From contig NZ_QAII01000158.1 in NCBI RefSeq assembly GCF_003060965.1, forward strand, positions 1 to 44,746: a stretch of DNA of 44,746 nucleotides, given 5' to 3'. The translations under genes were made by a program, and so were the position numbers. How positions within the stretch are numbered: the first letter of the stretch is position 1; each line of letters opens with the position of its first letter. Positions 2,787 to 20,125 of this stretch are shown here, piece by piece. Below the pieces are notes generated by a model, which searched no databases, was not told the DNA's origin, and saw nothing but the letters and a program-made list of their open reading frames with translations. The DNA is from Caulobacter sp. HMWF025. GTDB taxonomy: Bacteria > Pseudomonadota > Alphaproteobacteria > Caulobacterales > Caulobacteraceae.

Positions 2787-3557
2787 TTGGCCCAGTACGT
2801 TGTCGTGTTCGATCTGGAGACCATTCCTGATCTTGAGGCAGTTTCGCGGATCAACGGGTTGGCTGAGCACGACGACGCGGTAGCTGAGGGGATCGTCGGC
2901 GAGAAGTTCCCGAAACTCCCTCTGCACAAAATCGCCTGCATCGGCGCCGTGATCGCTGAACGGCTGGATGACCACTGGGCGATCCGGTCGCTGGGTGCAC
3001 CGCATATGGGCGAACGATCCGAGGCCGACCTGATCTCGTCTTTCTCTGACCGGCTCCAGTCCCTCCGCCCGACCCTTGTCAGCTTCAACGGTCAGGGCTT
3101 CGATCTGCCGGTCTTGCGCTACAGGGCGATGGTCAATTCGATCCCGGCGCCGGGTCTCCATGCCCGTGCGTACTTCAAGCGCTACGATGATGCCGCCGTC
3201 GATCTGTGCGACGTGCTGGGTTCGTACAGCAGCGGCGCCAAGGCGAAGCTGGACGAGCTATGCCGGGTTCTGGGGCTGGCGGGAAAGCCTGACGGCGTTG
3301 ACGGCGCTGAGGTGGCTGGATTCGTGAAGGCCGGGCGGATCGCCGAGGTCGCCGCGTACTGTGAGACCGATGTCGTGAACACCTATCGGGTGTGGCTGCG
3401 TTATGAACTGTTCCGGGGGGCATTGAAGCCTGACGAGTTCCGGTCCAGCGAGACGGCGCTTGCCGACTTCATCCGGGCACGGCTAGTCGAGAAGCCCCAC
3501 CTCGCGTTTCTGATCGATGATCTGCATCGGTCTGTAGAGGTGCCGATCTCCGCCTGA
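2787..3557 (+). CDS. DEDD-type 3'-5' exonuclease (PolB exonuclease-like)
   Basis: This 256-residue protein looks like a stand-alone proofreading-type exonuclease of the DnaQ-like superfamily, related to the predicted 3'-5' exonucleases with a PolB-like fold (PolB_exo_2). Exo I is FDLETI (Asp9, Glu11), Exo II is SFNGQGFDLPVL (Asp106), and Exo III is the region around YCETDVVNTY (Asp195), so the acidic residues needed for two-metal catalysis are present. No polymerase domain follows. The TTG start is supported by GGAGG four bases upstream. Its role in the island is unknown; it could act in DNA repair or in degrading invading DNA. The next gene, the HEPN protein, is convergent. Confidence 0.85.
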   Translation: MAQYVVVFDLETIPDLEAVSRINGLAEHDDAVAEGIVGEKFPKLPLHKIACIGAVIAERLDDHWAIRSLGAPHMGERSEADLISSFSDRLQSLRPTLVSFNGQGFDLPVLRYRAMVNSIPAPGLHARAYFKRYDDAAVDLCDVLGSYSSGAKAKLDELCRVLGLAGKPDGVDGAEVAGFVKAGRIAEVAAYCETDVVNTYRVWLRYELFRGALKPDEFRSSETALADFIRARLVEKPHLAFLIDDLHRSVEVPISA

Positions 3558-3620
3558 CCGGGGCGCTGGTGTTGCCGAGGCACGCTCCCCTACAGTCGCC
3601 CCTCTAGTGGCCTCCCTCGA

Positions 3621-4364
3621 TCAGCGCTGCCCGGCGATGTCCTGTTGGCGGACGAGGCCAGCATCAATCATTCTGGCGTCGATGTGTTCGGCGAGTGCCT
3701 TCACCGCGTTTCGTGCACGAGTGACAAAATCAAAGTTCATCGTGATGGCACCATTTCTTGCAATGGGGACGTCAGGATAAGAGCGAACGTACAGATCGTC
3801 TGGCTTGCCATCTCGGTGTACCAATATATGGCGAGCATCTAGGTAGGGCATTGCTGCCGTCAGAACGTTCTCTTCTAGCTGTAGTCCAACGCGAACGCTC
3901 ATTTTGTTTATTAGAGAGCGTGTATTTCGTTCATTCTCAAGCGCCCGAAATATCTTGTCGGATATCAAGCGTATAACAGCATCCCAAGAACCAGCTTGAA
4001 GGATTTCTTTGGCGTGAATGTCGAGTTTGACTTCGCCAGCAAAACGCGACGCATCTACTCCGGCGAGCGCTGCTCGCGATAGAGACGTTGCGAGAAAATC
4101 AGAAAAATCTTCGTATAATTCCTTTATAAAGGCGACGTGGATTGTGGATTTCAAATGCAGACCGACAATTTTCCGAGACTGTATTGTATTAGGGCAAGCG
4201 TGAAGTCGGGGGTATCCATCAACTCGCCCTCCTGTCGCCTCACAGATGGTCCTCTCGTCGGCCTGTCCGCGCAGGAAGTTTGTTATAAGCACGTCGGTTA
4301 GCTCAAGGTCTGTCTCGTAGGAGATCAGACGTTGAGTGAATCTGTGGAGCGCCTTGCTTGGCAA
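3621..4364 (-). CDS. HEPN-domain protein, putative RNase
   Basis: This 247-residue protein has the Rx4-6H signature of HEPN ribonucleases as Arg178-His179-Ile-Leu-Val-His183, followed by RDGKPDDLY, in a helix-rich context like the RiboL-PSP/MAE_28990-type HEPN group. HEPN proteins commonly act as RNA-cleaving toxins in abortive defence. No nucleotidyltransferase-like (MNT) antitoxin lies beside it; the neighbour on the same strand is a resolvase ending about 110 bases upstream. Base composition is clearly more AT-rich than the chromosome. The TTG start is preferred because GAGGGGGA lies about seven bases upstream. The overall family assignment rests on the motif and fold pattern, so an unrelated helical protein remains possible. 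Confidence 0.6.
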   Translation of the reverse strand: MPSKALHRFTQRLISYETDLELTDVLITNFLRGQADERTICEATGGRVDGYPRLHACPNTIQSRKIVGLHLKSTIHVAFIKELYEDFSDFLATSLSRAALAGVDASRFAGEVKLDIHAKEILQAGSWDAVIRLISDKIFRALENERNTRSLINKMSVRVGLQLEENVLTAAMPYLDARHILVHRDGKPDDLYVRSYPDVPIARNGAITMNFDFVTRARNAVKALAEHIDARMIDAGLVRQQDIAGQR

Positions 4365-4474
4365 ATCTTGTCCCCCTCGCTCCGTGTCCCCAGAGCGCTA
4401 CCGCTACTTGTCCATTGGTTGTCAGCTTTCGCAATGGCTGAGTTGGAGATCGGCGCCCAACTTGCGAGGGCGAG

Positions 4475-5053
4475 CTACACTCGCTGCTCGCCCATAGCTG
4501 TTCGGCCGCCCGGCAGCGCCCGATAAAGCGTCGCCGGAGCACATCCGACCTGACCGGCGACTTCGGCGACAGTCAGCGTGCCCTCCGCGATCAGCGCCTT
4601 GGCCACGCGGAGCTTCTGATCGTCGAGGGAGCGTGGGCGACCGCCAACTCGACCACGGGCACGAGCGGCGGCGAGGCCGTGTCGCGTGCGCAGTTTGAGG
4701 ATGTCAGTCTCGGCCTGATTAAGGGCTGCGAGCATGTTCACCCAAAGCCTGCCGGTCGGCGAAGAGGTTTCGATATTTTCGGTCAGGGAATGCAGCCCGA
4801 TCTCCCGGCTGTTCAGATCGTCAACGATGTCGATGATCTGCCGCATATTTCGACCGAGGCGCGAAAGCGCGAAAACGCAGAGCACGTCGCCGGGGCGGGC
4901 AAACTCCAGCGCCTTGGCAAGCTCCGGCCGGTCGATGCGCGTACCGGAAACAGTCTCAAGGAAGATGCGTTCGCAGCCCGCTTTTTCCAGAGCGTCGATT
5001 TGTAGAGCATGATCCTGCGACGAAGTGGAAACCCGAGAAAAGCCGATCTTCAT
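4475..5053 (-). CDS. Serine resolvase/DNA invertase (small serine recombinase)
   Basis: This 192-residue protein has the standard layout of resolvases and invertases. The N-terminal catalytic domain begins MKIGFSRVST with Ser9 as the nucleophile and contains SRLGRNMRQI (Arg65, Arg68). A long E helix follows, and a C-terminal helix-turn-helix (about residues 158-182, TVAEVAGQVGCAPATLYRAL). A GGGAG ribosome site precedes the ATG. It could resolve multimers of a circular island form, invert a DNA segment, or be a transposon remnant; no transposase lies next to it. Inverted repeats just upstream (5112-5152) are candidate binding sites. Confidence 0.93.
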   Translation of the reverse strand: MKIGFSRVSTSSQDHALQIDALEKAGCERIFLETVSGTRIDRPELAKALEFARPGDVLCVFALSRLGRNMRQIIDIVDDLNSREIGLHSLTENIETSSPTGRLWVNMLAALNQAETDILKLRTRHGLAAARARGRVGGRPRSLDDQKLRVAKALIAEGTLTVAEVAGQVGCAPATLYRALPGGRTAMGEQRV

Positions 5054-5111
5054 TCAATCTCCCAAAACTCAACGGATTGCTCGCAATCCAGACAGTGGTT
5101 TTAGGATACAG

Positions 5112-5152
5112 TATTGAGATGATTTTTTCCTCAATAAACGGGCGTATTGAGG
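5112..5152. repeat. Three TATTGAG/CTCAATA repeats upstream of the resolvase
   Basis: TATTGAG lies at 5112-5118, CTCAATA at 5130-5136 and TATTGAG at 5145-5151. The last two extend to CCTCAATA-N8-TATTGAGG (5129-5152), a perfect 8-bp inverted repeat 24 bases long. This gap separates the resolvase from the HTH-methyltransferase gene, which is divergent. The repeats may be recombinase sites (res-like) or an operator for the HTH domains of the methyltransferase. Confidence 0.5.
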
Positions 5153-5296
5153 CAAGATATTCAAAGCATAATACCGATCATTTGATGGAAATCAGAGAGA
5201 GGGCGTCGGCCGTCGCGGCGAGCGACATTCGGCCGCCATCCGGCTCCTCGCTGGAAACCTTCCGGTAAAGGATTCTACCCCAGAAATGGCGCCATC

Positions 5297-6589
5297 ATGC
5301 CGTTCGACGCCGCACCATCAGTCAACGAAACTACCATCGAGTATGCGGCCGGAGCTTTAGGCGCCGGTTTGCGTGAAGTGCGCCGCTCGATGAAGTTCAG
5401 CCAGAAGCGACTGGCTGCCGAGGCGGGGATCGATCTGGTCACCGTGCAAGGGCTGGAGCAGGGCTGCGGCACGCTGCGGTCGCTTCTGGCGGTGCTCGGC
5501 GTCTTGAGGCTGCGGTTCGCCGACCAGCAGCCGTCGCTGGAAGTTGGCGGGTGGATCGCTACCGTTCGGAGGGCGACGGGTTACTCACAGGCGGCGCTCG
5601 CTACGCTGATCGGCCTCAGCAAGCCGACAATCATCCAGATCGAACACGGGCGGGGCAACCTGCGGAGCCTGCTCCTTGCGATGATGTTCCTGCGGCTCAC
5701 GCCGATGGTCGTTCCGCAGACCGATCCACTACATGGCGCCCGCCTGATCCTCGGTGACTGTCTGGAGGTGCTGCCCACGCTGCCAGACCGTTCGATCAGC
5801 GCGGTCATCGCCGACCTGCCATACTCGCTCACCAATCTGGAATGGGATGAGGCGATTCCGCTGGAGCCGCTGTGGGAGCAGTTCCGGCGAGTTCTAAAGC
5901 CGACTGGCGCCGTGATCCTGACGGCCAGTCAGCCGTTCACCGCAGAGTTGGTGATGAGCAATCCTGAGTGGTTCAAGGAGGCGCTGGTTTGGGAAAAGAG
6001 CCGTGCGACCGGGTTTCTACAGGCCAGTAAGCGGCACCTCAAAAAACATGAAGACGTCCTCGTTTTCAGCCCCGGTACTATCGTGTCGGGAAGGGGGCAT
6101 CAGATCGCCCGCAACATGACCTTCAATCCGCAGGGGTTGGTCGAGCTTGAAAGGCCAGTGCGTTCCGGCGGTGGGATTGTGAAGGGCGGCACGCTGTCAG
6201 ATTCCGGCGGCCAGAACACCCTCAGCCCGATCTACCGCCCTTGCTACATCAAGCCCAACACAAAGCGAAACGGCGAGCCGGACACCTTCAACGGCAAGCC
6301 CATCACCGGCGATGGCCGCAATCAAACCCACACGAACTATCCGAAGTCGATCCTACGGTTTCCCTCTGAGTTTAGGCCCGTCCACCCGACGCAGAAGCCG
6401 CTCGAACTGATGCGATACCTCGTCCGCACATTCACGAACGAAGGCGACACCGTACTGGATTGCTGCTTCGGCTCTGGCACGACGGCGGTGGCGGCTGTGA
6501 TGGAGGGGCGCCGGTTCGTCGGCGTCGAGAAGGATGCAGGCTACTTCGAGCTTGCACAGGAGCGGCTACGGCTGGTGCGGCTGGGCTAA
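5297..6589 (+). CDS. DNA methyltransferase with two N-terminal HTH domains
   Basis: This 430-residue protein has two related XRE-like helix-turn-helix units at about residues 22-73 and 84-135. They look like an internal duplication: LREVRRSMKFSQKRLA / IATVRRATGYSQAALA and LEQGCGTLRSLL / IEHGRGNLRSLL. An N6-adenine/N4-cytosine methyltransferase of beta-type order follows, with catalytic motif IV DLPY at 173-176 (a variant of DPPY), HPTQKP near 355, and the AdoMet-binding motif FGSGTT at 391-396 close to the C terminus. It is divergent from the resolvase and convergent with the Type ISP enzyme. It may be an orphan methyltransferase that also represses its own promoter. The DLPY variant keeps the Asp, Pro and Tyr, so activity is plausible. 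Confidence 0.9.
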   Translation: MPFDAAPSVNETTIEYAAGALGAGLREVRRSMKFSQKRLAAEAGIDLVTVQGLEQGCGTLRSLLAVLGVLRLRFADQQPSLEVGGWIATVRRATGYSQAALATLIGLSKPTIIQIEHGRGNLRSLLLAMMFLRLTPMVVPQTDPLHGARLILGDCLEVLPTLPDRSISAVIADLPYSLTNLEWDEAIPLEPLWEQFRRVLKPTGAVILTASQPFTAELVMSNPEWFKEALVWEKSRATGFLQASKRHLKKHEDVLVFSPGTIVSGRGHQIARNMTFNPQGLVELERPVRSGGGIVKGGTLSDSGGQNTLSPIYRPCYIKPNTKRNGEPDTFNGKPITGDGRNQTHTNYPKSILRFPSEFRPVHPTQKPLELMRYLVRTFTNEGDTVLDCCFGSGTTAVAAVMEGRRFVGVEKDAGYFELAQERLRLVRLG

Positions 6590-6625
6590 TTCGGCCGCAC
6601 CAGATCGTCATTGAATAGTAGCCTA

Positions 6626-9600
6626 CTAGGCCTGTGCGGTGTCCGTCTTGGTCGTGTCCATGATGTCGAGTGCGGGCAGGCTGCGCACGATCTTCATGGT
6701 CTCCAAGCTGACGGTGATGACCCGCTGGAACAGCTTGAGTGGGTAGGCGGGGTCGCCGACTGTCTCGACGGCGTAGCGGTTGGCGTCGTTGACGATACCG
6801 CTGTCTTTGTCGGTTTTTACGACCTGTCGTTCCATGACCCATTCAAGCGCCGACTTGCCGTTGACGATGTAGTCGTAGGCGTGGATCGGAATGTTCGTCA
6901 TCGTGATGCGCGGGTTATAAATCACCGTCGCCTTATCGACTTTGGGTCGCTTGCCACCGAATTTCATCTTTTCAACGCGGTAGAACGTCTTTTCGTCCTC
7001 GATCACTGCGAGGCTCAGATCACCCTCTTTAATCGTGACTGGGTAGGGCTCAACAGTTTCGAAGTCCACGTGTAAATCTGCCAAACTCTCTCCCGCTCTC
7101 ACGAACTGCCAGAAATCCTCCACCTTCTTTGGAAGTGGAATTCGTGGCAGTTGCTTGGAAAGATTGTCTTGAAATTGCGCTCGATATGATTCTGAGTGTA
7201 GAATTCCATATACGTAATGGAAAACGTCCTCCTTCATTATCGTTGCTTCTGGATAAGCTGCTTTAAAGTGAGAAAGTCCTGCATCCGTTATTCCGTCGCG
7301 AACCTCTGTATCATCAAGGTCAAGTTCCTGCTTGATGCTATCTGTAGGTCGGGGATACAAGTATAGGGGGAACGTCTGGGTACTTGATGGACCTTCACGT
7401 GATGGAATCCACCCGCTCATAAAGCAGCTAAATGGCACCGACGCGCCAACGCCCGTTACCCAGATAACCCGGTTCGCTTTCCCTTTTTCCGGGAACATCC
7501 TCGGGAGTTGCCCGCGCTCATGGTTTAGCTGATCATCAAAATACAGCCACTGCATTGTAAATGGCTTCGCAACGCACTGGACTAGGTTTTCCTCTTGGAA
7601 GGAAGCCTTTCGACGCTTCGCTAAATCTGTCAGCAGGCTTCTCGTCCAGCTAATTTTCGTCGAATCTTTCGAAGCGAGTGATCTAGCCCCCAGCCAATCC
7701 ATCTTATGCTTTGAAAACTCTTCCGTAAGTCTTTCGATCTCAGAATTATAGAACGAGATAAAATTTCTCACGCGCGAACGTAGTTCTATAATGCTTGAGT
7801 TTATGACCCAAGCATCTCGCCCAGTTTCTATCCCGCGCGAATAAGTGGAGAAAATTGCAGGCTCTCTATTGGCGTCTTTGTTCCCGATGCGGATGTAACG
7901 GTCGAAACTTTCGTCCCTTTGCTTAACCCAGTCATTTTGGGTGTCTGGCGTGACTGCGGTCCATCCATTTGCGGCACTGATGCCGCCTATGCTTCCAAAC
8001 ATGGAGATGCGTGCCAATTTATCCGCTTGGCTTAGATAATCTCCAATGTCGTGAACATAGATGTTGCCACGCTTTTCCACGGAGGGGTTCTTGACGAAGA
8101 GCCAGATGGCGATAGGGGCACGGCTGCCGGAGCCAAAAATCTTCCCGCCTTCGCGGCGTGATTGCTCGCCCGATGTTCGCTGATTTCCGCGAAGGTGGAA
8201 TATGTAGAGATCGGAGAATTCCTCTGCGAGGGATTTCCGAAGTCCATCCGTAGAATTCCCGTCGATCCAGCCAGCATTTGTCACAAATGACACAATGCCG
8301 CTATCTCCGATACGATCGCTGGCCCAGCGAACCGCCCTAATGTAGCTGTCATAAAGCGCATTGAGATTTGTAGCGCTACTGTTCGCAGCGTAGGTCTCTC
8401 TTATTCTTTCATCGAGTTTCGGATAGTTCGAATTAGCAGAGTCGTCATTTGCGCTACTTTGACCCACTGAATACGGCGGATTTCCAATAATTACCCGTAT
8501 ATCAAGAGATTTTTGTCGCATCCGCCGACTGCTATTATCGGCCATTATTTCGCTAATTAAATCACGATCCTGCTCATATAGTTGAAAGGTATCGGTAAGG
8601 CAGATTCCGCCAAACGGAGCATATTCATTCGTTATGCCGGAGTACGTGGCTTCAATGTTGATGGCTGCGATGTAGTATGCAAGAAGGACTATTTCATTTG
8701 CATGTATTTCGTTGGAATATTTCCTTTTGATATCTTCTCGCGATATGAGCCCAGATTGCAGGAGGCGAGTTATAAAGGTGCCTGTACCTGTGAAGGGGTC
8801 AATTATATGAACGCCCTCACTTCCAAGGTTTTGCCCGAATTCTGATCGAAGAACTTCGTCAACCGACCGAATTATAAAATCGACTACTTCAACTGGCGTG
8901 TAAACGATGCCGAGCTTTTCTGTCATTCTGGGGAAGGCTGTTCGGAAGAACTTATCGTAAAGTTCGACTATAATTCTTTGTTTGGCTTCCGGGGAGTCGA
9001 TGCCCGAGGCTCGGCGACGCACACTTTCATAAAAACTATTGAGCGACTCGGATTCCTTCTCCAAGTTTTGCTCATCCAGAATGTCTAAAACCCCTTGCAT
9101 CGCCACTGACACAGGGTTGTTTTTCGCGAAGCTGTGATCCTCGAATAGAGCTTCGAATACTGGCTTTGTGATGATGTGCTGGGCCAGCATCTCGACCGCA
9201 TCTGATTCAGAGATGCTTTCGTTCAGGTCATCGCGAATTTCTGCTAGGAACTCCCGGAATGCCTTTCGTTCCGCTGTTCCTTCCTTTTGGACCAGAGCGG
9301 TGATGCGCGTGATGTGCGTTTGGGCGATCTTGGCGATGTCGCTGGCCCAATTCTCCCAGTAGTCGCGCCTACCGCACTTCTTGACGATCTTCGCCATGAT
9401 CGCCTTCGAGAACTCATCGAATACGAACTCGATCTGGCTTTCGTCAGGGCGCTTGCGTTCTGGCTTGTCGTCATCGCCGTCGTCATCCGGGGCGCTGCCG
9501 TGACCGATGTTCGCCTTCCCCTTAGACTTGTCGGCCTTGTTGGGCAGCTTGTTGCTTACGGCGATGACCTCGATCTGGCCGCCGACATCGACGCCCAAAT

Positions 9601-11524
9601 CCATCTTGTTGATCATCGCGTCGAACCGTTCGTCGTGTGATCGCAGGGCATTCAGGATTTGCCAGACGACGCGATAACGCTCGTTGTCGTTCAGGGCATC
9701 CTCGGGCGACATTCCAGCGGGCACGCCGATGGGCAGGATCACGTAACCCATCTTCTTGCCTTCGGCCCGGCGCATGACGCGGCCGACCGACTGCACCACA
9801 TCGATTTGGGACTTCCGGGGGTGCATGAAGAGGATCGCGTCAAGAGCGGGGACATCGACGCCCTCGGACAGGCAGCGGGCATTGGTAAGGATACGGCAGA
9901 CATCCTCGGGCTGATCGGCCTTGAGCCAATCTAGGCAACGGTTCCGCTCCTTGGCATTGAATGTGCCGTCAACGTGTTGAAGCTCGCAACCGAGTGGCGT
10001 TCGGCCTGCTTCGACCTCCTTGCCCTCCTCAGACGCGAGGTACTCGGCGACTACCGCTTGGAACTGGTCCTTGATCAGCTTCGAACTGGCGATGTCCTTA
10101 CAAAACGCCAGCGCCCTGTGCATGGGCTCGCCGTCGTCGCCTATGTCCTGTTTCAAGTCGCCCTTGGTGAGCGCCTTGTAGCAACCGATGATCTTGGTCG
10201 CGTCATCCAATTTCAGTTCATTGTCACCGGCCGCCAAGCGGCTCTGGATGCTGGAACTGACCATTCCCTCGTCCACGGCGAGGACGACAACCTTGTAGTC
10301 CGTGAGCAGGCCGTTTTCGACCGCCCAGCCGAAGCCCTTCTGGAATAGGGTCGTTCCGTACTTGGTCTCGTCGTCCATCGAGCAGAGTTCGACTGAGGCC
10401 TCGTTGGCCTTCGTCTTAACGCCATCACCGAACACGCGGGGCGTCGCGGTCATGTAGAGCCGTTTCTTGCCCTTGAGGTACGTCTGATCATGGACCCTGA
10501 CGAAATGGCTCTCTTCGTCGCCTGCGAACGTCGCTCCGGTCGTCCTGTGGGCCTCGTCGCAAATGATGAGGTCGAACTCAGGCATCCCGTGTGCCGTCTG
10601 CGCCGCCGCCACGACCTGAATGGACTGGTAGGTCGCGAACACGACCGTCATCCGGTCTGGTGCCGAATGTGCGACCTTCTTGGCCAGCTTGGCCGCGTCG
10701 GTCGTCGCCGGATAGTCGAGGTCATGGGCTTCGACTTCGGCCACGTCGTCGGCGTTGCGGCGCCGTTTCCCGACCTGAGCATCTGAGCAGACGGCGAAGG
10801 CTCGAAGTGGTGTCGTGGAATCGATGGTCCATTCCCGAATGGTCTGGGACATCAGCGACAGTGACGGTACGAGGAACAGCGCGGTCTTGCCGACGCCGAC
10901 CATGTTCTCCGCGATCTTGAGGCCGGTGAACGTCTTGCCGGTGCCGCAGGCCATGATCAGCTTGCCACGGTCACCCTCGGACAAGCCCTCGCGAACCGCC
11001 TCCAACGCCTGTTCTTGGTGGGGGCGGGCCTTCTTCTTCTCGGCGACCTCCACGGTTTCGTCGCGGAGGTACTTGGCCCAGTTGATGCTTTCGGCGAGGC
11101 GATCCAGACCGATCCGGGTGGTTTCGATCTGCTGGCCGTCAAGGGCATCTTCGGCGTGACCGCTCCACGGTGCGTCCGTGGTGTCGATGATCAAGCGGCG
11201 AGTGAACGGGCTCTTCCCCGACGCCGTGAAGAAGCTGTCAATGTCGGCCTTTTGGACACGATGGCCTTCTTGGTAGAATTTGCACTGGATCGCGCAGACG
11301 CCGCCGTCTCGCATCTGTGCGACGACATCAATCCCAGTGTCACGGCCGTCTCGGCCTGACGCCTTGGCCCAGTCGGAATAGAGCCAAGCGTCCTCGTATT
11401 CCTGAGCCATGCCGGGATCGTGCTTGATGAACTCCACCGCGATGCGCTCGAAGTAGTTTCCCTTCTCCCGCTCGGAGCGGGCGGCGTCGCGAAAGGATTT
11501 CAGCAGGGCGCGTAGATCGGACAT
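6626..11524 (-). CDS. Type ISP restriction-modification enzyme (nuclease-helicase-methyltransferase)
   Basis: This 1632-residue single-chain enzyme matches the architecture of LlaGI/LlaBIII (about 1570 residues). An N-terminal Mrr-like PD-(D/E)XK nuclease has Asp66 and Gln80-Cys-Lys82. The SF2 translocase has Walker A MACGTGKT (191-198), DEAH (323-326), TATP (359-362) and motif VI QSVGRVMRR (about 578-586). The gamma-type N6-adenine methyltransferase has DPFTGTG (909-915) and NPPY (1015-1018). The remaining C-terminal part would be target recognition. All key residues are present, so it should recognise, methylate and cut on its own. The stretch coding for about residues 780-1480 is visibly more AT-rich than the helicase half. 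It is last in a minus-strand series behind the flagellin and two small genes. Confidence 0.93.
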   Translation of the reverse strand: MSDLRALLKSFRDAARSEREKGNYFERIAVEFIKHDPGMAQEYEDAWLYSDWAKASGRDGRDTGIDVVAQMRDGGVCAIQCKFYQEGHRVQKADIDSFFTASGKSPFTRRLIIDTTDAPWSGHAEDALDGQQIETTRIGLDRLAESINWAKYLRDETVEVAEKKKARPHQEQALEAVREGLSEGDRGKLIMACGTGKTFTGLKIAENMVGVGKTALFLVPSLSLMSQTIREWTIDSTTPLRAFAVCSDAQVGKRRRNADDVAEVEAHDLDYPATTDAAKLAKKVAHSAPDRMTVVFATYQSIQVVAAAQTAHGMPEFDLIICDEAHRTTGATFAGDEESHFVRVHDQTYLKGKKRLYMTATPRVFGDGVKTKANEASVELCSMDDETKYGTTLFQKGFGWAVENGLLTDYKVVVLAVDEGMVSSSIQSRLAAGDNELKLDDATKIIGCYKALTKGDLKQDIGDDGEPMHRALAFCKDIASSKLIKDQFQAVVAEYLASEEGKEVEAGRTPLGCELQHVDGTFNAKERNRCLDWLKADQPEDVCRILTNARCLSEGVDVPALDAILFMHPRKSQIDVVQSVGRVMRRAEGKKMGYVILPIGVPAGMSPEDALNDNERYRVVWQILNALRSHDERFDAMINKMDLGVDVGGQIEVIAVSNKLPNKADKSKGKANIGHGSAPDDDGDDDKPERKRPDESQIEFVFDEFSKAIMAKIVKKCGRRDYWENWASDIAKIAQTHITRITALVQKEGTAERKAFREFLAEIRDDLNESISESDAVEMLAQHIITKPVFEALFEDHSFAKNNPVSVAMQGVLDILDEQNLEKESESLNSFYESVRRRASGIDSPEAKQRIIVELYDKFFRTAFPRMTEKLGIVYTPVEVVDFIIRSVDEVLRSEFGQNLGSEGVHIIDPFTGTGTFITRLLQSGLISREDIKRKYSNEIHANEIVLLAYYIAAINIEATYSGITNEYAPFGGICLTDTFQLYEQDRDLISEIMADNSSRRMRQKSLDIRVIIGNPPYSVGQSSANDDSANSNYPKLDERIRETYAANSSATNLNALYDSYIRAVRWASDRIGDSGIVSFVTNAGWIDGNSTDGLRKSLAEEFSDLYIFHLRGNQRTSGEQSRREGGKIFGSGSRAPIAIWLFVKNPSVEKRGNIYVHDIGDYLSQADKLARISMFGSIGGISAANGWTAVTPDTQNDWVKQRDESFDRYIRIGNKDANREPAIFSTYSRGIETGRDAWVINSSIIELRSRVRNFISFYNSEIERLTEEFSKHKMDWLGARSLASKDSTKISWTRSLLTDLAKRRKASFQEENLVQCVAKPFTMQWLYFDDQLNHERGQLPRMFPEKGKANRVIWVTGVGASVPFSCFMSGWIPSREGPSSTQTFPLYLYPRPTDSIKQELDLDDTEVRDGITDAGLSHFKAAYPEATIMKEDVFHYVYGILHSESYRAQFQDNLSKQLPRIPLPKKVEDFWQFVRAGESLADLHVDFETVEPYPVTIKEGDLSLAVIEDEKTFYRVEKMKFGGKRPKVDKATVIYNPRITMTNIPIHAYDYIVNGKSALEWVMERQVVKTDKDSGIVNDANRYAVETVGDPAYPLKLFQRVITVSLETMKIVRSLPALDIMDTTKTDTAQA

Positions 11525-11667
11525 GGGCTCACCGGACAGCGAAACGGCAGCGTGGGCGGGTGAGCGACACGAGGGAGGTCACCCCAGATGCTGCCCGGCC
11601 ATGCTGGCGCTACCGTGGCGTGCGTCGGGAGAAGTGGGAACCCCCATGAAGGTCTGATCCACAGTGA

Positions 11668-12054
11668 TCAGCGTATTACGGCCTGACGGTAGTGCTCGTA
11701 ACGGCTCATCAGATCGCGCCGGGCGTTGTCATCGCCCACCCCGATTTGTGTCAGTCGCTTCCAACTGACTATGCTCGGAGGCCGGTCCGCAATGTGGCGT
11801 TCACATTCGGGGCGGTCCGCTTCTGTGACTACGAATTCGTCGGTGCCCACAAACTCGTCGAAGTCGGACAGTACGACGCCCGCGAGTTTCGTGTGTAGGT
11901 GCGTCAGCGCCTCTGGGTCCGCGACCTTGATCACGAGAAGGTTCGTCGGTTCCGGCTCGGTCACCCAGTGCCCCGCCGCGAGCATGGCCGCCACGATCTC
12001 GTCTGGAATGGTGCTGGTGACGGGGGCGGCGATCAGCCAAGGGCGCCAGATCAT
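11668..12054 (-). CDS. Hypothetical protein, coupled to upstream small gene
   Basis: This 128-residue protein begins MIWRPWLIAAPVTSTIPDEI and is not recognised. No signal peptide or membrane segment is seen; there is a mixed alpha/beta pattern with many acidic residues (SDFDEFVGTDEFVVTEADRPE). Although the frame is open further upstream, the start at 12054 is preferred because its ATG overlaps the stop of the preceding gene in the arrangement ATGA, the sign of translational coupling. The two products therefore probably work together. It sits between the flagellin and the Type ISP gene, on the same strand as both. Confidence 0.6.
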   Translation of the reverse strand: MIWRPWLIAAPVTSTIPDEIVAAMLAAGHWVTEPEPTNLLVIKVADPEALTHLHTKLAGVVLSDFDEFVGTDEFVVTEADRPECERHIADRPPSIVSWKRLTQIGVGDDNARRDLMSRYEHYRQAVIR

Positions 12055-12302
12055 CGACCACTCCACAGGCGACGATCCGGCCGTTCCGGCCATACGAGCT
12101 TCTGGAGGCAGTAGAGGGCGAGGATGTACCGGCCACGGCCGTAGAGCCATCTGATGAGGTGGAGCAGGGCGCTGTCCGATGGGCGCCCGTGGCGATTGGT
12201 GGTGGCGTAGTTGTGTGCGGCGCCAAGGAGTTCGGTGGAGAAATGGCGCCGCGAATGGGTCAGGCCACGCTCTGCCATCATGTCGTAGAGGTCGTTGATC
12301 AT
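12051..12302 (-). CDS. Small hypothetical protein (possibly DUF6626-like)
   Basis: This 83-residue protein begins MINDLYDMMAERGLTHSRRHFSTELLGAAHNY. The pattern of a short helical segment followed by RxxFSxxxLGxxxxY recalls small proteins annotated as DUF6626 in alphaproteobacteria, of unknown function; this match is from memory and uncertain. The residue pattern would allow a helix-turn-helix-like fold. Its stop overlaps the next gene's start (ATGA), so the two form an operon. Confidence 0.6.
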   Translation of the reverse strand: MINDLYDMMAERGLTHSRRHFSTELLGAAHNYATTNRHGRPSDSALLHLIRWLYGRGRYILALYCLQKLVWPERPDRRLWSGR

Positions 12303-12526
12303 GATGGTATTTAGCCTGACCGCCCCGGTCGGCGGCTGGACCGGAGGCCTACTTGCGCCTCTGGCTGAAACTTCATCGAACGCCGCACTTCGTGCAGATC
12401 AGCGCCCAGCGCTCTGGCGGTATGTTCGACGGTGGATTCGTTGACCGTTGGTGTGGCGTCGAATGGCGTGACGATCCCATTTCAGGGGTAGAAACCTTTA
12501 CCGGTGATCAGTCGCGACCGTCACCC

Positions 12527-13363
12527 CTAGCCAAAAAGACTGCGCAGCCAGTTGGCCGAGTTGGTGGCGATGGACAAGGCCTGCACGCCGAGGGACTGCT
12601 TGGTTTGTAGGGCGGTGAGCTTGGCGCTCTCCTTGCTTAGGTCGGCGTCTATCAGGTTGCCCACCCCGATCTCGGATTGATCTTGCAGCTTGCCGACGAG
12701 TGCCGTCTGGCCATCGAGCGCCTCGCCCTGAGTGCCCAGCTTGGCGAGAGCGGCGGTCATGCTCTTCAAGGTGTGGCTGACATCCGAAAGGCAGTACTGG
12801 GCGTATTCGACCTCATCCAGCGTGTGCCCTCGCATGTAGTACGGGTCGGTCGGCGTGTAGGGCGTAAACTTGGCGCCGAGGCCGTCGATGTCCACGGTCT
12901 GGGCGCCATCGCCACTGGCCAGAAAACTGACCGTCTGGCTCCCGGTCAGCAGATTGATGCCGTCGAAATCCGCGCCTTCGAAGGTTCGCATGATCTGCAA
13001 GTGCATCGTCCAGTAGTCATCCATGAGGGACTGGCGGCTGCTGCGGGGAATGCTCTCTTCTGTGCCGGTCAGAGCCAAGGCCTTCATCTTGGTCAGGAGA
13101 TCGACAACCTGCTCACCGGCAGCCAACGCCACGTCCACGGCGCCTCGACCGCGTGCCAGCGAGTCCTTCACCGCGTTCAGGGCGTTGGCGTCAGCGGTCT
13201 GTCGCTTGGCGATGGCATAGGTCGCCCCGTCATCCTTAGCCGAATTGACCTCGCGACCCGTCGCGATGCGAGTGGTCGTCGTGGCCAAGTCCCGCCCTGT
13301 CGCATTGAGCCCTTGAAGAGCAACAAGGGCCTGAGCGTTGGTGTTGACGCTGTTGATCCCCAT
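12527..13363 (-). CDS. Flagellin
   Basis: This 278-residue protein is a complete short flagellin of the Caulobacter type (family members about 273-278 residues). The N-terminal D0/D1 region (MGINSVNTNAQALVALQGLN, then RIATGREVNSAKDDGATYAIA) and the C-terminal D1/D0 region (ALDGQTALVGKLQDQSEIGVGNLIDADLSKESAKLTALQTKQSLGVQALSIATNSANWLRSLF) are both present, with a short central region and no variable D2/D3 domain. The start at 13363 is chosen over an in-frame ATG 13 codons earlier because flagellins start this way and GAGGGGGA lies just upstream. Filament monomers are exported by the flagellar type III apparatus, so this one must rely on the host's. Its presence in a restriction-rich island is unusual. 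Confidence 0.92.
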   Translation of the reverse strand: MGINSVNTNAQALVALQGLNATGRDLATTTTRIATGREVNSAKDDGATYAIAKRQTADANALNAVKDSLARGRGAVDVALAAGEQVVDLLTKMKALALTGTEESIPRSSRQSLMDDYWTMHLQIMRTFEGADFDGINLLTGSQTVSFLASGDGAQTVDIDGLGAKFTPYTPTDPYYMRGHTLDEVEYAQYCLSDVSHTLKSMTAALAKLGTQGEALDGQTALVGKLQDQSEIGVGNLIDADLSKESAKLTALQTKQSLGVQALSIATNSANWLRSLFG

Positions 13364-13455
13364 CCGGTCCCCCTCGGCGGCCGAGTGGGCCGATGTCGTC
13401 AATATGAACTATAGTAGATAAACTCCAAGATGCGTGAACGCCAAGCGTGTTCGGC
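13364..13455. promoter_or_regulatory. Divergent control region with ACTATAGT palindrome
   Basis: The gap between the flagellin and the XRE regulator contains an AT-rich patch, AATATGAACTATAGTAGATA, centred on the perfect 8-bp palindrome ACTATAGT (13408-13415). Short palindromes of this kind in a divergent promoter are typical operators of small XRE repressors, so the regulator next door may control both itself and the flagellin. Confidence 0.45.
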
Positions 13456-13680
13456 ATGGACATGCGAAAGATCGTCGGCCGGAATGTGCGGAAGTACCGC
13501 CTCGAACGAGGGCTGACGCAGGAGGTGTTCGCTGAGCGCTGTGGGTTCGCCCAAAATTACCTGAGCGATCTCGAACGCGGAAAGCGCAACCCGACCATCG
13601 TCACCCTGTGGGAACTCGCGCAAGCGTTGGAGGTCACGCCCATTGCCCTATTGGCCGATGACGCCGAAGGCGAAGCCTAG
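13456..13680 (+). CDS. XRE-family transcriptional regulator
   Basis: This is a compact helix-turn-helix protein of about 74 residues: VGRNVRKYRLERGLTQEVFAERCGFAQNYLSDLERGKRNPTIVTLWELAQAL is a full HTH_3/Cro-C1 domain covering almost the whole length. Such single-domain proteins act as dimeric repressors or controller proteins of restriction systems and phages. The start is uncertain (GTG 13447, ATG 13456 or ATG 13462; no strong ribosome site for any). It is divergent from the flagellin/Type ISP series and could be its controller. Confidence 0.88.
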   Translation: MDMRKIVGRNVRKYRLERGLTQEVFAERCGFAQNYLSDLERGKRNPTIVTLWELAQALEVTPIALLADDAEGEA

Positions 13681-13909
13681 CTCATTCCGGCGCTGCTGCT
13701 GATTGGGCGCCAGCCTTGTTGTACGGGATTGGGGGCCGTGAGCTTGCTGCACTGCGCTCAGGCCGCTCTTGGCGTTCCCGCTCAGGCGCAGCCTTCGCTC
13801 CCACACCGGCGAGCAGTTTTCTGCATCCCACAGAGAGAAAAGTGTCAAACTGTGTGAAATACGAAGATTTAGAATTGCATGTTCTCGCGTTCAGATCGGC
13901 TTTCATTAT

Positions 13910-13977
13910 CCCCCTGTCCCTCCATCACACTGGAATTACACATTGAATGTGTAGGCAGAGGATGGAGAGACAGGGGG
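13910..13977. repeat. Long nested inverted repeat (hairpin)
   Basis: The outer arms at 13910-13926 and 13961-13977 are 17 bases long and complementary at 16 positions (CCCCCTGTC...). Inside, TACACATT (13937-13944) and AATGTGTA (13946-13953) form a second, perfect 8-bp pair around a single G. No T-tract follows on either strand, so it is not an ordinary terminator. It may be a structured RNA, a palindromic mobile unit or a protein-binding site. Confidence 0.6.
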
Positions 13978-14540
13978 AAGAACCTTCTCGGACGAGTCGG
14001 CTTTCTGTAAATGACTTAGGTTGTTACTCCGTGCGAGCGGTTTCCCGGTACTCGCCTTGTCATGACTTCCCGATCCCATGACCTAAGACGCCTGAGCATT
14101 ACTCGGCGTAGGGGCTGCTTAACCCGCGTCCAGAGTGCAGAGGCCGCAGACGTCATGCGTCGCGCGCTTGCCAATGAATCGCCTGCCCTCGTGAGGCGGG
14201 GTCGCTTGCTTGTCACTTATGGTGGATCGAAACGGTTCGCCGGTCCCCGGCCACGGGGGTGACGGCTGCACTGGCGCACTCTACAGACCGTGCGTCAGTT
14301 TCTAGGGCTCCAAGTCGGTCACGGCGGACCCCAGATCATTGAATGTCTAACGAGGCTACCAACTCTCATCTGGCCCCTTCGGGCCTTAACGGACGACCGG
14401 GACCGATCCCGTTCCGTGTTTGGTGCTCTCTACACCGGTCTAGCTGGTAATCGGCATCCCCCGACCCCTGTACGTTGGCTAGTTTGGGCCGGGTCAGCCT
14501 AGTAAGAAGTCACCCTGAGAGTATATGTGGTAGAAAAGAA

Positions 14541-14650
14541 AAAGCCCCCAAGCAGGTGACGGTCTGCTTGGGAGCTTCGAATGTCGTTGTGTTCACCACA
14601 TCAACATTGAACTCGTTGAACGCGCCGCCACGGCTTGCTCGATAATATAT
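14541..14650 (-). ncRNA. Candidate small RNA ending at the minus-strand terminator
   Basis: This is an inference from context. The terminator at 14542-14577 has no protein gene feeding it. Upstream on the minus strand is an AT-rich promoter-like stretch (14640-14680) with TTGAAT near 14678-14673 or TTCAAC near 14674-14669 and AT-rich -10 candidates (GATAAA, TATATT) 17-18 bases on. A transcript of about 100 bases would result. Open frames inside are only a few codons long. Confidence 0.35.
14542..14577 (-). terminator. Rho-independent terminator (minus strand)
   Basis: The stem is AAGCcCCCAAGCAG / CTGCTTGGGaGCTT, 13 of 14 pairs with an 8-base loop. Read on the minus strand it is followed by TTTTTCTTTT, a proper U-tract. 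No protein gene on the minus strand ends here, so it should end a short RNA that starts within the next 100-150 bases upstream. Confidence 0.7.
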
Positions 14651-14731
14651 TTATCTCATATTCAGCGGTTGAATTCAATTTTAATCGTTATGTTGTAAAT
14701 TAAATCGGAGTTTGGCAGCTAAGAGTTGTGC

Positions 14732-15373
14732 ATGATCTTTAGGTTGGCGGTATTTTGCTTTCTTGATGCCAATGGCAGGCTGAACGCCGCCGAATTTCGA
14801 CGATACCTCCGGTCGGTCTGCGGCCAGAACTGGGTCTGCACCTACAACTGGCGTTTCGAGGCTCCCCCGGCGGCGCTGGGCCTCTCGTTGCCGGTGATCG
14901 TTCATCGTGAGGAGCGAGATGCACTGGTGGCGCCGCCGACCGGCGTCTGTCGTGTGACCGACGAAGTTCTCCTGACGCCCAGCCAAGAGAGACGGTGGCG
15001 GAACATCTGCTTCCAACGAATGCCGTTCCCGCAGCCCAACGGAGATCATTTCCCGTGGGAGGCTGTCTGTTTCGAAGTCCCGAATGTGTCGCCCGCCGTT
15101 CTGGAGGTGATCGACGCCGTTGCGGCCTATCCGTGGGAAGTGCGTGGAGAACTTCTCACGGTGTGTCCGGCCGACGCGATGACGATCTTCCAAACGCAGT
15201 CGCCGGATACCTTCAAGTATCGGGGACGACCTTCGCGCGAGGGTGGCGAGCCGGTGCGGGCACCGAGCCAGACGGTCGTGCATGGGCGCGTGCGCAGCGA
15301 CCGTTCGTCCGAGTTGGTGGCGTTCGACAGCATCGACGATCTCATCGCCGCCATCAGACGACTTGAGCCCTGA
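14732..15373 (+). CDS. Hypothetical protein, first gene upstream of GmrSD-like nuclease
   Basis: This roughly 213-residue protein begins MIFRLAVFCFLDANGRLNAAEFRRYLRSVCG and is not recognised. It has no obvious signal peptide, is rich in aromatic residues and Pro, and has a distinct central segment (TPSQERRWRNICFQRMPFP) and a C-terminal helix (DSIDDLIAAIRRLEP). The ATG at 14732 is chosen; an in-frame TTG lies two codons earlier. It is followed at once by another unknown gene and then by the DUF262/DUF1524 nuclease, all on the same strand, so the three may form one system. Confidence 0.7.
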   Translation: MIFRLAVFCFLDANGRLNAAEFRRYLRSVCGQNWVCTYNWRFEAPPAALGLSLPVIVHREERDALVAPPTGVCRVTDEVLLTPSQERRWRNICFQRMPFPQPNGDHFPWEAVCFEVPNVSPAVLEVIDAVAAYPWEVRGELLTVCPADAMTIFQTQSPDTFKYRGRPSREGGEPVRAPSQTVVHGRVRSDRSSELVAFDSIDDLIAAIRRLEP

Positions 15374-15414
15374 GAGTTTGGCGGGCCGAGGAATATGCCC
15401 GGTGGCTGTGGGCA

Positions 15415-15756
15415 ATGGAGATCATCCAGATCGCAGCCGGGCGGTCTGTGATCCTACCGGTGTGCGGCGTGGGTCTGGTGCGTGAACCCAGCACCAAGGA
15501 GCGGGAGGCGGCACACGAACTTGTCGAGGCCCTTCGGTCGGACAATGCGTCCGTACATCTCATGTCACCATCATTGGTGGCGTTGGTCAGGGCGATTCGC
15601 CCTCGAAATACGTCTGACTTCTCCGGCTCGCCGTTTCTGGTCGCTCGCAGCCGTCGCCTGACGACCATCGAGCACAGAGAGCGGGGCGGTAGCCGTTGGA
15701 TCGATGTCCGGGGTCAGCATCAGGCGATCTGGCGATGGCTGACGAAACGTCAGTAG
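15415..15756 (+). CDS. Hypothetical protein, second gene upstream of GmrSD-like nuclease
   Basis: This is a basic protein of 113 residues from the ATG, not recognised. The frame stays open upstream to 15367 and the translated stretch RVWRAEEYARWLWA looks like real protein, but offers no ATG, GTG or TTG. The only near-start is CTG at 15370, which overlaps the previous gene's stop as CTGA, so a non-standard start with translational coupling is possible and would add 15 residues. A Ser/Arg-rich C-terminal part ends HQAIWRWLTKRQ. It is co-directional with its neighbours. Confidence 0.6.
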   Translation: MEIIQIAAGRSVILPVCGVGLVREPSTKEREAAHELVEALRSDNASVHLMSPSLVALVRAIRPRNTSDFSGSPFLVARSRRLTTIEHRERGGSRWIDVRGQHQAIWRWLTKRQ

Positions 15757-15816
15757 TTGTGGCGTGACAATGCTGATGCCGAAGGTTTAGTTGAAGCCCT
15801 GCTGTAGGGGGCCGAT

Positions 15817-17709
15817 TTGGACGCGAAGCCACTATCCATCGGGAAGATCGTCAGCGAACGCCAGCGCTTCATCGTCCCAATCTACCAGCGCACATACGCA
15901 TGGAATCAGCGGGAACTTGAGCCGTTGGTGGAGCAGATAGAGGGCAAGGCCGACGAACTGTTGAAAACCGGGAAGGTCGCATTCTCCCACTACATGGGCG
16001 CGCTGTTGTTGATCCCGGATAGCGATCCGGTTTTCGGCAAGATTCAGGCCTTCAATGTCGTTGACGGTCAGCAGCGCCTTACGACCTTCCACCTCTGTTT
16101 CGCGGCCCTACGCGATGTCGCGAAGGAGTTTGGCTTTCCAGACGTCGCGCGCCAGCTTTCCGATCTGATCGTCCATAGCGACGATACGCCGATGCAAGAT
16201 CGGGCCACTGAACGGTACAAGCTGGAGCCCACGACCTATGATCGGGCGTTGTTCCGGCACATCATCGACCTAGACCGCGCAACGCTGCGCCAGAAATACC
16301 CCGACCACTTCTTCAAGAACGGGAAGATTCGGAACACCGCTCCCGGCCCGCTGTGGGCATATTGGTATTTCTGGGATCAGGCGGAAGACTACATCACCGA
16401 GGGGCGACGGCTCCCAGACCGCAAGGAGTACGACCATGCGGTTCTACATCAGCGCTTGCTCGCCCTATCGACCGTCCTGTTCGAACACTTCCGGCTGATC
16501 GTCATCACCCTCGCGGCCGATGACGACGCTCAGGTGATCTTTGAAACACTCAACAGCGGCGGCAAGCCGCTGGCCGCCATGGACCTCGTGCGCAACGACG
16601 TGTTCCACCGTGCTAACCGCCGCAACGAAGATCAGGGTGCTTTACTAGAAGAGCACTGGTCTGAGTTCGAGCAGCCGTTCTGGAAGCAGGAGCAGACGCA
16701 GGGGCGTATCAAAAAGCCGAGGATCGACTTCTTCTTGGGCCACGTCCTCGCGGCCGAGCGTGGTGTCGTCATCTCGCTGGGAGAGCTATTCTCCGAATAT
16801 AAGGCGTTCGTCGCCGCGCGTGCGTTTGAGAGCACCGCCGCCGAGCTTGGCGCTCTGACGAAGTACGCCCCGGCCTATCGCCAACTTGCCGAGCCTTCTG
16901 TCACCGGCGAATTGTCTAAGTTGTCGCGAAGGCTGAACACATTCGATCTATCGACCGCGTACCCGCTTGTTCTGGTGATCGCTCAATCCGACGCTGACGA
17001 TGCCACCAAGGCCCGGCTCTACGACCTCGTGGGGAGCTACATCGTTCGCCGGGCGATCTGCTATCTGTCGCCGAAGAACTACAACAATCTCTTCGTGGAG
17101 GTCGCGGCCTTCATGAAGAAGAACGGCATCACGGAGGACGCGTTCGCCACGGTGATGGACGCCAAGAAGGGCGCTGATACATCTCGTTTTCCGACCGACG
17201 ACGAGTTCGCCGCCGCCATACGTAGTCGGCCCCAATACGGCTGGATTCCGCAGCATCGGCTCAAGCTGATCCTCGAAGAGTTGGAATTCGCCATGCGCGA
17301 CAAGTTCAACATCCATGGAACGCTTCAAGACGGCCTGACGATTGAACACGTCATGCCGCAGACATGGACGACCAATTGGCCGCTCCCCAGTGGCGCGGTC
17401 GTACCGGCCGATTTTATTTCGGGCGTTGATGAGGCGGTGCGGTTGGAAATCGAGGCGAGAAAGGCGGTTGTACAGACCCTGCCGAACCTGACGCTGCTTA
17501 CGCCGCCAGCCAATTCGTCGGCGAGCAATTCTGACTTCGAAACGAAGAGGGTTCGTCTCCATGACTCGCTCCTCAAAACGAACATCGCCATCGCGGCGGA
17601 GCCCGTTTGGAACGAGCAAGCCATTGCGCGTCGCGCTGATGTGATGGCAGCGGCTGCGATAGCGCTTTGGCCTTCGCCGAGCACCCCAACGGCTAATGCT
17701 GATGGATGA
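15817..17709 (+). CDS. DUF262/DUF1524 protein, GmrSD-like (type IV restriction) nuclease
   Basis: This 630-residue protein has the two-part layout of GmrSD-like enzymes. The N-terminal DUF262 (GmrS/ParB-like NTPase fold) shows PIYQRTYAWN (21-30) and the signature DGQQR (83-87). The C-terminal DUF1524 HNH-type nuclease shows IEHVMPQ with His511 and then NLTLLT...NSSASN...F. GmrSD enzymes cut DNA carrying modified cytosine; relatives act in other defence systems such as SspE, but no phosphorothioation genes are present here. The TTG start follows AGGGGG. It is the last gene of the island, about 70 bases from the right junction. Confidence 0.9.
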   Translation: MDAKPLSIGKIVSERQRFIVPIYQRTYAWNQRELEPLVEQIEGKADELLKTGKVAFSHYMGALLLIPDSDPVFGKIQAFNVVDGQQRLTTFHLCFAALRDVAKEFGFPDVARQLSDLIVHSDDTPMQDRATERYKLEPTTYDRALFRHIIDLDRATLRQKYPDHFFKNGKIRNTAPGPLWAYWYFWDQAEDYITEGRRLPDRKEYDHAVLHQRLLALSTVLFEHFRLIVITLAADDDAQVIFETLNSGGKPLAAMDLVRNDVFHRANRRNEDQGALLEEHWSEFEQPFWKQEQTQGRIKKPRIDFFLGHVLAAERGVVISLGELFSEYKAFVAARAFESTAAELGALTKYAPAYRQLAEPSVTGELSKLSRRLNTFDLSTAYPLVLVIAQSDADDATKARLYDLVGSYIVRRAICYLSPKNYNNLFVEVAAFMKKNGITEDAFATVMDAKKGADTSRFPTDDEFAAAIRSRPQYGWIPQHRLKLILEELEFAMRDKFNIHGTLQDGLTIEHVMPQTWTTNWPLPSGAVVPADFISGVDEAVRLEIEARKAVVQTLPNLTLLTPPANSSASNSDFETKRVRLHDSLLKTNIAIAAEPVWNEQAIARRADVMAAAAIALWPSPSTPTANADG

Positions 17710-17738
17710 GTTCGATCTGTCAGAGGGCCAAGCAGACC

Positions 17739-17768
17739 GTTAGTCCTCGTCTTCGCGCTGGTAGCTAA
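17739..17768. repeat. GTTAG/CTAAC pair at island right end
   Basis: GTTAG (17739-17743) and CTAAC (17764-17768) repeat the inverted motifs of the left end, here with a 20-base spacer against 9 and 10 bases on the left. In the circular form CTAAC here and GTTAG at 486-490 would flank the crossover core, as arms of attP. Confidence 0.4.
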
Positions 17769-17781
17769 CGTGGAACTTGTC

Positions 17782-17787
17782 GAGCGA
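17782..17787. repeat. attR core (GAGCGA)
   Basis: This is the right copy of the 6-bp repeat at 470-475. Coding sequence for the GTA tail protein resumes here in the frame left at the other end (Ser codon AGC at 471-473 and 17783-17785). Confidence 0.7.
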
Positions 17788-20125
17788 GTACTTCGGCCAC
17801 CAGCCCGCCGACGGCTCGGGCCATGCGGTCTTCCACCTCGACCCGCTGTGGAGCGACCCGGCCATCGATTTCGTCGGCATCGACTTCTATCCCCCGGTCA
17901 CCGACTGGCGGGACGGCACGGGGCATCTGGACGCGCTGGCGGGCCTTACCGGGCCGCACGACAGCGCCGGCCTGCGGGCCGGTCTGACCGGCGGTGAGGG
18001 CTTTGACTGGTCCTATGCCGACGAGGCCGCGCGGCTGGCCCAGGTCCGCACCCCCATCACCGACGGGGCCCATGGCGAGGCCTGGATGTTCCGGCCCAAG
18101 GACCTGAAGGGCTGGTGGAGCCATGCGCATTACGACCGTCCCGGCGGCGTGCGTTCGGCCACCCCGACCGGCTGGGTGCCGCAGTCCAAGCCGATCCGGC
18201 TGATCGAGTTCGGCTGTCCGGCCATCGACAAGGGCAGCAATGCGCCCAACCTCTTCATTGACGCCAAGAGCGCCGAGAGCGGCCTGCCGCCGTTTTCGAG
18301 CGGCGCGCGCGACGAGATCGGTCAGCGGCGGTTCCTGGAGGCGGTGCTGGACTGGCTCGCCGATCCGGCCGCCAATCCGGTGTCTCGGGTCTATGGCCGG
18401 CCGATGGTCGAGGCGGCCTCGGCCTGGTGCTGGGATGCGCGGCCGTTTCCCGACTTTCCGGCCCGCAGCGCGATCTGGGCTGATGGACCCAACTGGCTGA
18501 CGGGACACTGGCTGAACGGCCGGACCGGGACCGCGCCGCTGGTCGAGCTGATCGCGGCGCTGGCGGCCCGGGCCGGGGTGGCGCTGGATCCCGGCGAGGC
18601 GAGCGGCGGGGCCGTCGGCTATGTCCTCGACCGGCCGATGCGGCTGCGCGACGCCCTGGCTCCGCTGTGCGAGGCCTTTGGACTGGATGCCGTGGAGCGG
18701 GGCGGGGCCGTGCGGCTGGTCTCGCGCGCGGGCCCGGCGACTGAAGTTCTGGACGAGGCCGATCTCGCCTGGCCCGAGGATCGTGCCGCGCCGGTCACCG
18801 CCGTGCGTCGCCTGACCGATCCTGTCGCCGCCGTGCGCCTGCGCTTCATCGATGCGGCCCGCGACGACCAGGCCGGTTCGGTCAGCGTGCGGCGTGCGGG
18901 CGGCAATGGCAGTGCCGACATCGAGATGCCGCTGGGACTCTATGCGGCGGACGCCACTGTGGTCGCTCAACGCCTGCTGGACGCCGCCCTGGCCGCGCAG
19001 CGCGAGCGGGTCGTGCATCTGGCCCCCCTGGCCGCCCTGCGTCTGGAAACCGGCACCCGTCTGAGCTTCGAAGGCGAGGCCTGGCAGGTGCGGCGCATCG
19101 ATCTCGACGAGCAGCCGCGGGCCCTGCTGGCCCCGGTGCTGCCTGATCCAAGCCTGGCCGCGAGCCAGGACTGGTCCCCGGCACCGGCCCGCGAGCCGCC
19201 CGGCTCGCCGGTCGTTCAGGTCCTCGACCTGCCGATGCCGCCGGAGGGCGGGGAGGATCTGCGACCGTGGATCGCCGTCGCCGCCGAGCCGTGGCGACCG
19301 ATGGAGGTGCATGCCGGTGCCGATGTCGACAGCCTGACCCTGCGGGCGGCGGTGCCAGCGGCCGCGAGCCTGGGTCAGACCCTCGCCGACCTGCCGCCGG
19401 CCTCGCCGCACCGTCTGGATCGAAGCGGTCGCCTGACGGTTCGGCTGGAAGGCATCGGCCTGTCGTCCCGGTCGCTGGCCCTGGCCCTGGCAGGCGACGG
19501 GGTCATCGCGGTTCAGGGCGCGGCCGGTGCCTGGGAGGTGATCGGCTACGCTACGGCGACCCTGGTCGCGCCGGAGGTCTGGACCCTGTCGGGCCTGTTG
19601 CGCGGCCAGTGGGACGGGCAGGCCGCGCCTGACCTGATCCCGGCGGGCGCGGCGGTCGTGCTGCTGGACGAGACCCTGGCGCGGCTGACGCTTTCCGGTT
19701 TTGAGCGCGGGGTGCCGCTGCGGGTGCGGGCCGCGCCGGCCGGGGGACCGCCGTCCGGCCCGGCGATGAGCGAAGCGATAATAACCTGGACCGGCCGGGC
19801 GGCGCGGCCCCTGGCTCCGGCCCATCTGCGGGTCCGGTCAGTCGGGGGCGACCAGACGATCCGCTGGATTCGCCGCAGCCGGGTCGGCGGCGATGTCTGG
19901 GACGGTGAGGTTCCGCTCGGCGAGCTGGCCGAGACCTGGCGGCTGAGAGTCCTCAACGGCAGCGCGGTGGTCCGCGAGGTGGTGCTGGCCGCACCGGGGT
20001 TCACCTATTCCGCCGCCCTGCGCGCTGTCGATCTGGCGGCCGGAACGGCCGGAATCCTGAGCGTTGAGGTCGCCCAGGGCTCGGCCACGGCGGGTTGGGG
20101 TGTCCCGGCCACAAGGTTGCTGTGA
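17783..20125 (+). pseudogene. GTA host-specificity/tail hub protein (orfg15 type), downstream part
   Basis: About 780 residues continue the gene cut at 475. SEYFGHQPADGSGHAVFHLDPLWSDPAIDFVGIDFYPPVTDWR completes the GTA TIM-barrel-like domain. A phage-tail-like domain follows (MRLRDALAPLCEAFGLDAVERGGAVRLVSR) and then the C-terminal domain typical of the GTA protein (near WTLSGLLRGQWDG). The half has no native start codon or ribosome site; translation could begin only by chance. The frame is intact to its stop, with no other lesions. The next gene is a J-domain protein. Confidence 0.9.

Follow-up and report, generated by a model that had tools for sequence, protein, structure and literature searches.

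A diverged flagellin gene opposite a small XRE regulator in a large-serine-recombinase island of a Caulobacter-family genome

Among the described systems, the closest to the locus presented here are the flagellin-remodelling prophages, in which the RNA-guided repressor TldR represses the host flagellin and FliCP replaces it (PMC13418256). According to the 2026 FR-phi paper, no prophage-encoded flagellins were known before these TldR-linked ones (PMC13418256). Like the FliCP-TldR prophages, our locus is a mobile element with a lone, diverged flagellin gene beside a regulator gene, in a host with flagella of its own, and the strong divergence from the host flagellin that characterizes FliCP is found here as well (46-48% identity to the standard host paralogues compared). 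Unlike them, it is a large-serine-recombinase (LSR) island with restriction genes and not a phage, its regulator is a small XRE protein and not TldR, and there is no sign of repression of the host flagellins. Neither a TnpB/TldR-like gene nor phage structural genes were detected among the island open reading frames (ORFs) scanned, and no guide RNA was matched in Rfam. The island is not a member of the FliCP-TldR group; it would follow a similar line if the reading proposed below is right.

Three further systems share single traits with the locus. The island flagellin belongs to the same family as the multi-flagellin system of Caulobacter (FljJ, FljK, FljL, FljM, FljN, FljO) and has a length close to 273 aa, but it is located in an island and lacks the sigma-54 promoter and the shared 5' element. 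Like the lone plasmid-borne flagellins of rhizobia (FlaCa of Rhizobium etli, pRapFH23c), it is single, distant from flagellar clusters and carried by a mobile replicon; unlike it, these proteins (about 33% identical to the island flagellin) are conserved in many Rhizobium plasmids and are accompanied by neither an XRE gene nor a restriction island. The regulator resembles the control (C) proteins C.BclI, C.AhdI and C.Esp1396I of restriction-modification (R-M) systems in being a small protein of the XRE type whose own start is closely preceded by a palindromic element; unlike in these systems, it is not adjacent to an R gene, and its orthologues are found beside many unrelated plasmid genes.

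The window, that is, the whole stretch of 44,746 nt that was analysed, corresponds to contig C109 of a Caulobacter-family genome of 3.96 Mb. A 17.3-kb island of the LSR type splits the gene encoding GTA_TIM, a gene transfer agent (GTA) tail-associated protein, into two parts (3-500 and 17777-20125), and has a GC content of 0.47-0.63 compared to 0.65-0.75 in the flank. The features discussed below are the following:

476-17784, no strand assigned: integrated island in the GTA_TIM gene (rcc01698-like); ends approximate, from the GTA_TIM halves, the junctions and the GC dip
621-2345, plus strand: LSR with Resolvase and Recombinase domains, at the left end of the island; a 74% identical LSR occupies the same GTA site in genome G034
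6626-11524, minus strand: Type ISP restriction-modification enzyme
12051-12302, minus strand: conserved island protein of 83 aa, with homologues in the LSR islands of genomes G034 and G025
12527-13363, minus strand: flagellin, intact, divergent, 278 aa, ATG start
13408-13420, no strand assigned: ACTATAGTAGATA, in the intergenic region of the divergent pair; putative operator or promoter of the XRE gene
13456-13680, plus strand: XRE/Cro-C1 regulator, similar to R-M control proteins, 74 aa, 64% identical to the G025 orthologue
15817-17709, plus strand: GmrSD-type modification-dependent restriction enzyme

Further cargo includes a PolB-type exonuclease, a resolvase and a methyltransferase with fused HTH domains. 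The LSR of G034 has entered GTA_TIM at the same codon region (WSEYF; L130/L131), evidencing that this GTA gene is a repeated integration site, and the insertion of LSR elements at GTA_TIM in two species should disable the gene transfer agent. The cargo of the G034 island comprises Type I restriction genes and homologues of the methyltransferase and of the 83-aa protein; no flagellin was found in it. As separate observations, the DNA methyltransferase with fused N-terminal HTH domains (5297-6589) has its homologue in this same-site island at L130:15764-16972, and the gene of the PolB-type 3'-5' exonuclease (2787-3557) has counterparts in another genus, g6, where four islands have such a gene near an LSR gene (loci L177, L180, L182 and L183; E about 1e-110).

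The reading frame of the flagellin extends over 12527-13402 on the minus strand and is open up to 13402, where TTG is the first possible start; the ATG at 13363, preceded by GAGGGGG, is the probable start codon. The N- and C-terminal helical domains are intact and score above the curated Pfam cut-offs (Flagellin_N, PF00669, 76.2 bits against 26.6; Flagellin_C, PF00700, 28.3 bits against 23), the GC content by codon position is 0.61/0.46/0.80, and the best matches in the PDB are FljN, FljL, FljK and FljM. The protein has an insertion with TDPYYMRGH and a cysteine. A single-sequence AlphaFold fold reached a pLDDT of 43 and was discarded. The first-pass annotation of this DNA had described a full-length, intact flagellin gene, with no other flagellar genes, in a restriction-rich mobile island and divergent from a small XRE gene with an 8-bp palindrome in between. 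This description is borne out by both Pfam domains, by the arrangement of the two genes around ACTATAGT, by the LSR, Type ISP and GmrSD genes and the insertion in a gene-transfer-agent gene, and by the absence of other flagellar genes among the island ORFs scanned.

Searches in 75 genomes of the genus, 390 of the family, 299 of the order and 385 of the class (overlapping sets) gave a best identity to the island flagellin of 53%, and no close relative was found in the family, order and class genomes. Four peptide-pattern scans of the IMG/VR viral contigs, an insensitive method, returned no relatives. The host genome contains seven further flagellin-domain genes, one of which is probably FlgL-like, judging by a weak score. 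Near-identity to a chromosomal paralogue, the outcome that the first-pass annotation had set against its own proposal, is absent, and at 46-48% identity a copy of a host paralogue is ruled out. The end branch of the island flagellin in the tree measures 1.44 changes per column (median 0.09), and its placement is unsure because of this length. An origin within the structural flagellins of the genus was not rejected in AU tests (p 0.21-0.34). Phylogeny was discarded as a means of naming the donor, since the branch is long and the AU tests do not decide. The protein had been called foreign: its divergence is strong, and a foreign origin is plausible; a known distant donor does not follow, since the AU tests allow a structural origin inside the genus.

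The XRE frame is open from 13447 (13447-13680; HTH_3, E=3.6e-17), and the MDMR start conserved in its homologues sets the start codon at 13456. The protein matches C.BclI (E=3.7e-9) and the PADLOC Control_protein model (E=3.4e-14). No R gene that it could control adjoins it, its neighbours being the flagellin and a stretch without recognised genes. Homologues with 60-70% identity occur on many alphaproteobacterial plasmids beside varied genes, and since the regulator is so widespread in other company its pairing with the flagellin may be partly incidental; it is a predicted general mobile-element autoregulator. Downstream of the XRE gene, an inverted repeat of 18 bp (94%; TCCCCCTGTCCCTCCATC, 13909-13978, 34-nt loop) was observed, surrounded by about 1 kb without a recognised gene.

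The palindrome ACTATAGT occupies 13408-13415, with about 45 bp separating it from the start of the flagellin gene and 41 bp from that of the XRE gene. The element is found 46-48 bp before the start codons of XRE orthologues in G025, G053, Rhizobium beringeri, Shinella and Roseomonas, and in degenerate form before those of R. daejeonense, Phaeobacter, Paracoccus and G047. The extended motif ACTATAGTTGATAA or a close variant is the form conserved before XRE orthologues, and its presence at the same place indicates that the palindrome is not due to chance; as it also precedes XRE orthologues on unrelated plasmids, it is not specific to the flagellin. Most likely, as judged from this conservation, it would be the XRE's own operator or promoter. 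A role as flagellin operator was rejected on account of its conservation at XRE orthologues without a flagellin, and the palindrome is absent from the host flagellin loci compared. The palindrome reported earlier is thus present and real, but it belongs to the XRE gene and not specifically to the flagellin. Considering that TATAGT can be read on both strands, one site could serve the two genes. A scan of viral contigs for the operator pattern gave 98 matches, which were judged chance. The XRE gene and ACTATAGTTGATAA form a widespread pair on alphaproteobacterial plasmids (loci L301-L306).

With the LSR as bait, a search of 388 family genomes yielded 20 LSR loci, of which five belong to this genus, and flagellins were found to recur in the LSR islands of G025 and G026, contrary to the possibility, raised with the original proposal, that the flagellin would never recur in other islands. 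In the congener G025, an LSR is flanked by a region of lowered GC content, about 6.4 kb long, that contains a 381-aa flagellin divergent from the 64%-identical XRE; the flagellin is nearly the only recognisable cargo, and no recognised defence gene was found in this island. In G026, the GC content is lowered between about 1223 and 1241 kb, and this region includes an LSR, a resolvase, a 421-aa flagellin, a probable two-component system and a Type ISP gene. Counting the window, three of the five genus loci have a flagellin no more than about 20 kb away; a rough base rate puts the probability of this at 2.5e-5 to 9e-4 for the five, a group picked after looking, and at 0.002 to 0.06 for three out of all 20 LSR loci. 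No flagellin was found at the fifth genus locus or at the loci of other genera, some of which are on short contigs. A 4.25-kb block with resolvase, flagellin, kinase-like and response regulator genes is present twice in G026 (L137:1700-5950 and L142:7303-11550) and may itself be mobile, since the two copies are 90% identical. The resolvase was dismissed as a general partner of the flagellin, the pair being seen only in G026, twice.

Altogether, we consider, with a probability of about one half, that the gene encodes an accessory flagellin that is cargo of an LSR island, placed beside a mobile-element XRE, and that this protein, if expressed, would enter and alter the host filament. Given that the flagellin-XRE pair is also present in the G025 island, elements of this kind may modify the flagellum of their host. 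No sigma-54 site, of the kind seen before two host flagellins, was found upstream of the island flagellin, and the conserved flagellin 5' element around GTCAAAATGACG, common to three host flagellins, is missing there; expression, if any, would therefore lie outside the normal flagellar hierarchy. It can be hypothesized that transcription would start from the shared XRE operator region and not depend on sigma-54 and the FljJ/FlbT circuit, that the product would be exported by the host flagellar secretion system and, as the most likely mechanism, mixed into the host filament, and that the surface and mechanics of the filament would be changed, amounting to a flagellar conversion by the island. 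The significance of the finding is that flagellins of similar divergence are carried here, in alphaproteobacteria, by integrative islands other than phages and beside a different regulator. Should they function, the remodelling of filaments by mobile elements would extend beyond a single phage group. We know of no settled explanation for the multi-flagellin habit of Caulobacter relatives, which, if the proposal is true, would gain a horizontal component that can be tested in a genetically tractable host.

The main rival is that the flagellin is a passenger, acquired by chance by a recombining island and currently under drift, of no use to either host or island. The very long end branch and the missing host-type promoter are consistent with it, as is the G034 island, with its 74% identical LSR at the same site and no flagellin. 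The island protein also departs from the family at 15-16 near-invariant columns, compared to at most nine in chromosomal rows, so that it may assemble poorly. Against drift, the ORF is intact and the pattern of constraint is kept: 79% of the near-invariant columns are retained versus about 40% of the others (p=4e-9), and only five out of 300 sequences in a neutral-drift simulation reached the same divergence without a stop codon, which together indicate flagellin-like constraint for most of the history of the gene. The recurrence of flagellins in two more LSR islands, in G025 with hardly any other recognisable cargo, also speaks against a chance passenger, which we regard as rather improbable.

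Compared with the anti-phage reading, the passenger is the stronger rival and a FljJ-like regulatory role the weaker. According to the anti-phage reading, an altered filament would lessen or divert the binding of flagellotropic phages and complement the restriction functions of the island. The co-location of the Type ISP and GmrSD genes with the flagellin and the presence of a flagellin and a Type ISP gene in the G026 island fit such an anti-adsorption layer. A survey of flagellins beside Type ISP genes, proposed in the first-pass annotation, gave none in the DNA covered around 38 loci of query-like enzymes from other species, several of these lying on short contigs. On this count the flagellin was rejected as a regular Type ISP neighbour, with G026 as a partly deviating case. 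Moreover, all six flagellins of C. crescentus are bound by phage phiCbK (review PMC9266447), and the FliCP/TldR authors judged phage resistance unlikely to be the main driver (PMC13418256). An anti-phage benefit is not favoured in view of these two reports and of the G025 island without recognised defence genes, and it is unlikely as the main function; phage evasion is one possible benefit of the island flagellin. Least probable is a regulatory flagellin that acts inside the cell on FlbT/FlaF and alters when, or in what amount, the host flagellins are made. FljJ is a precedent for it (PMC7591256), and the high divergence from structural flagellins and an AU test not firmly against placement in the FljJ clade (p=0.09) are compatible with it, but the best tree places the protein outside that clade and is 20.6 log units better.

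Returning to the accessory flagellin as island cargo, it is tentatively proposed that LSR islands of Caulobacter-like bacteria include a flagellar-conversion class, in which each island would carry its own fast-evolving flagellin opposite an XRE and change the filament independently of the host hierarchy. The flagellins of G025, G026, G069 and host contig C69 form one clade with full support; that of the window joins it at 78/80 only, between long branches, so that the three island flagellins are weakly grouped as one family. The C69 protein is a second unusual flagellin of the same host (about 440 aa; G000 contig C69:1058-2323, L144) and belongs to a patchy accessory clade, being detected in three out of 75 genus genomes at E<=1e-60.
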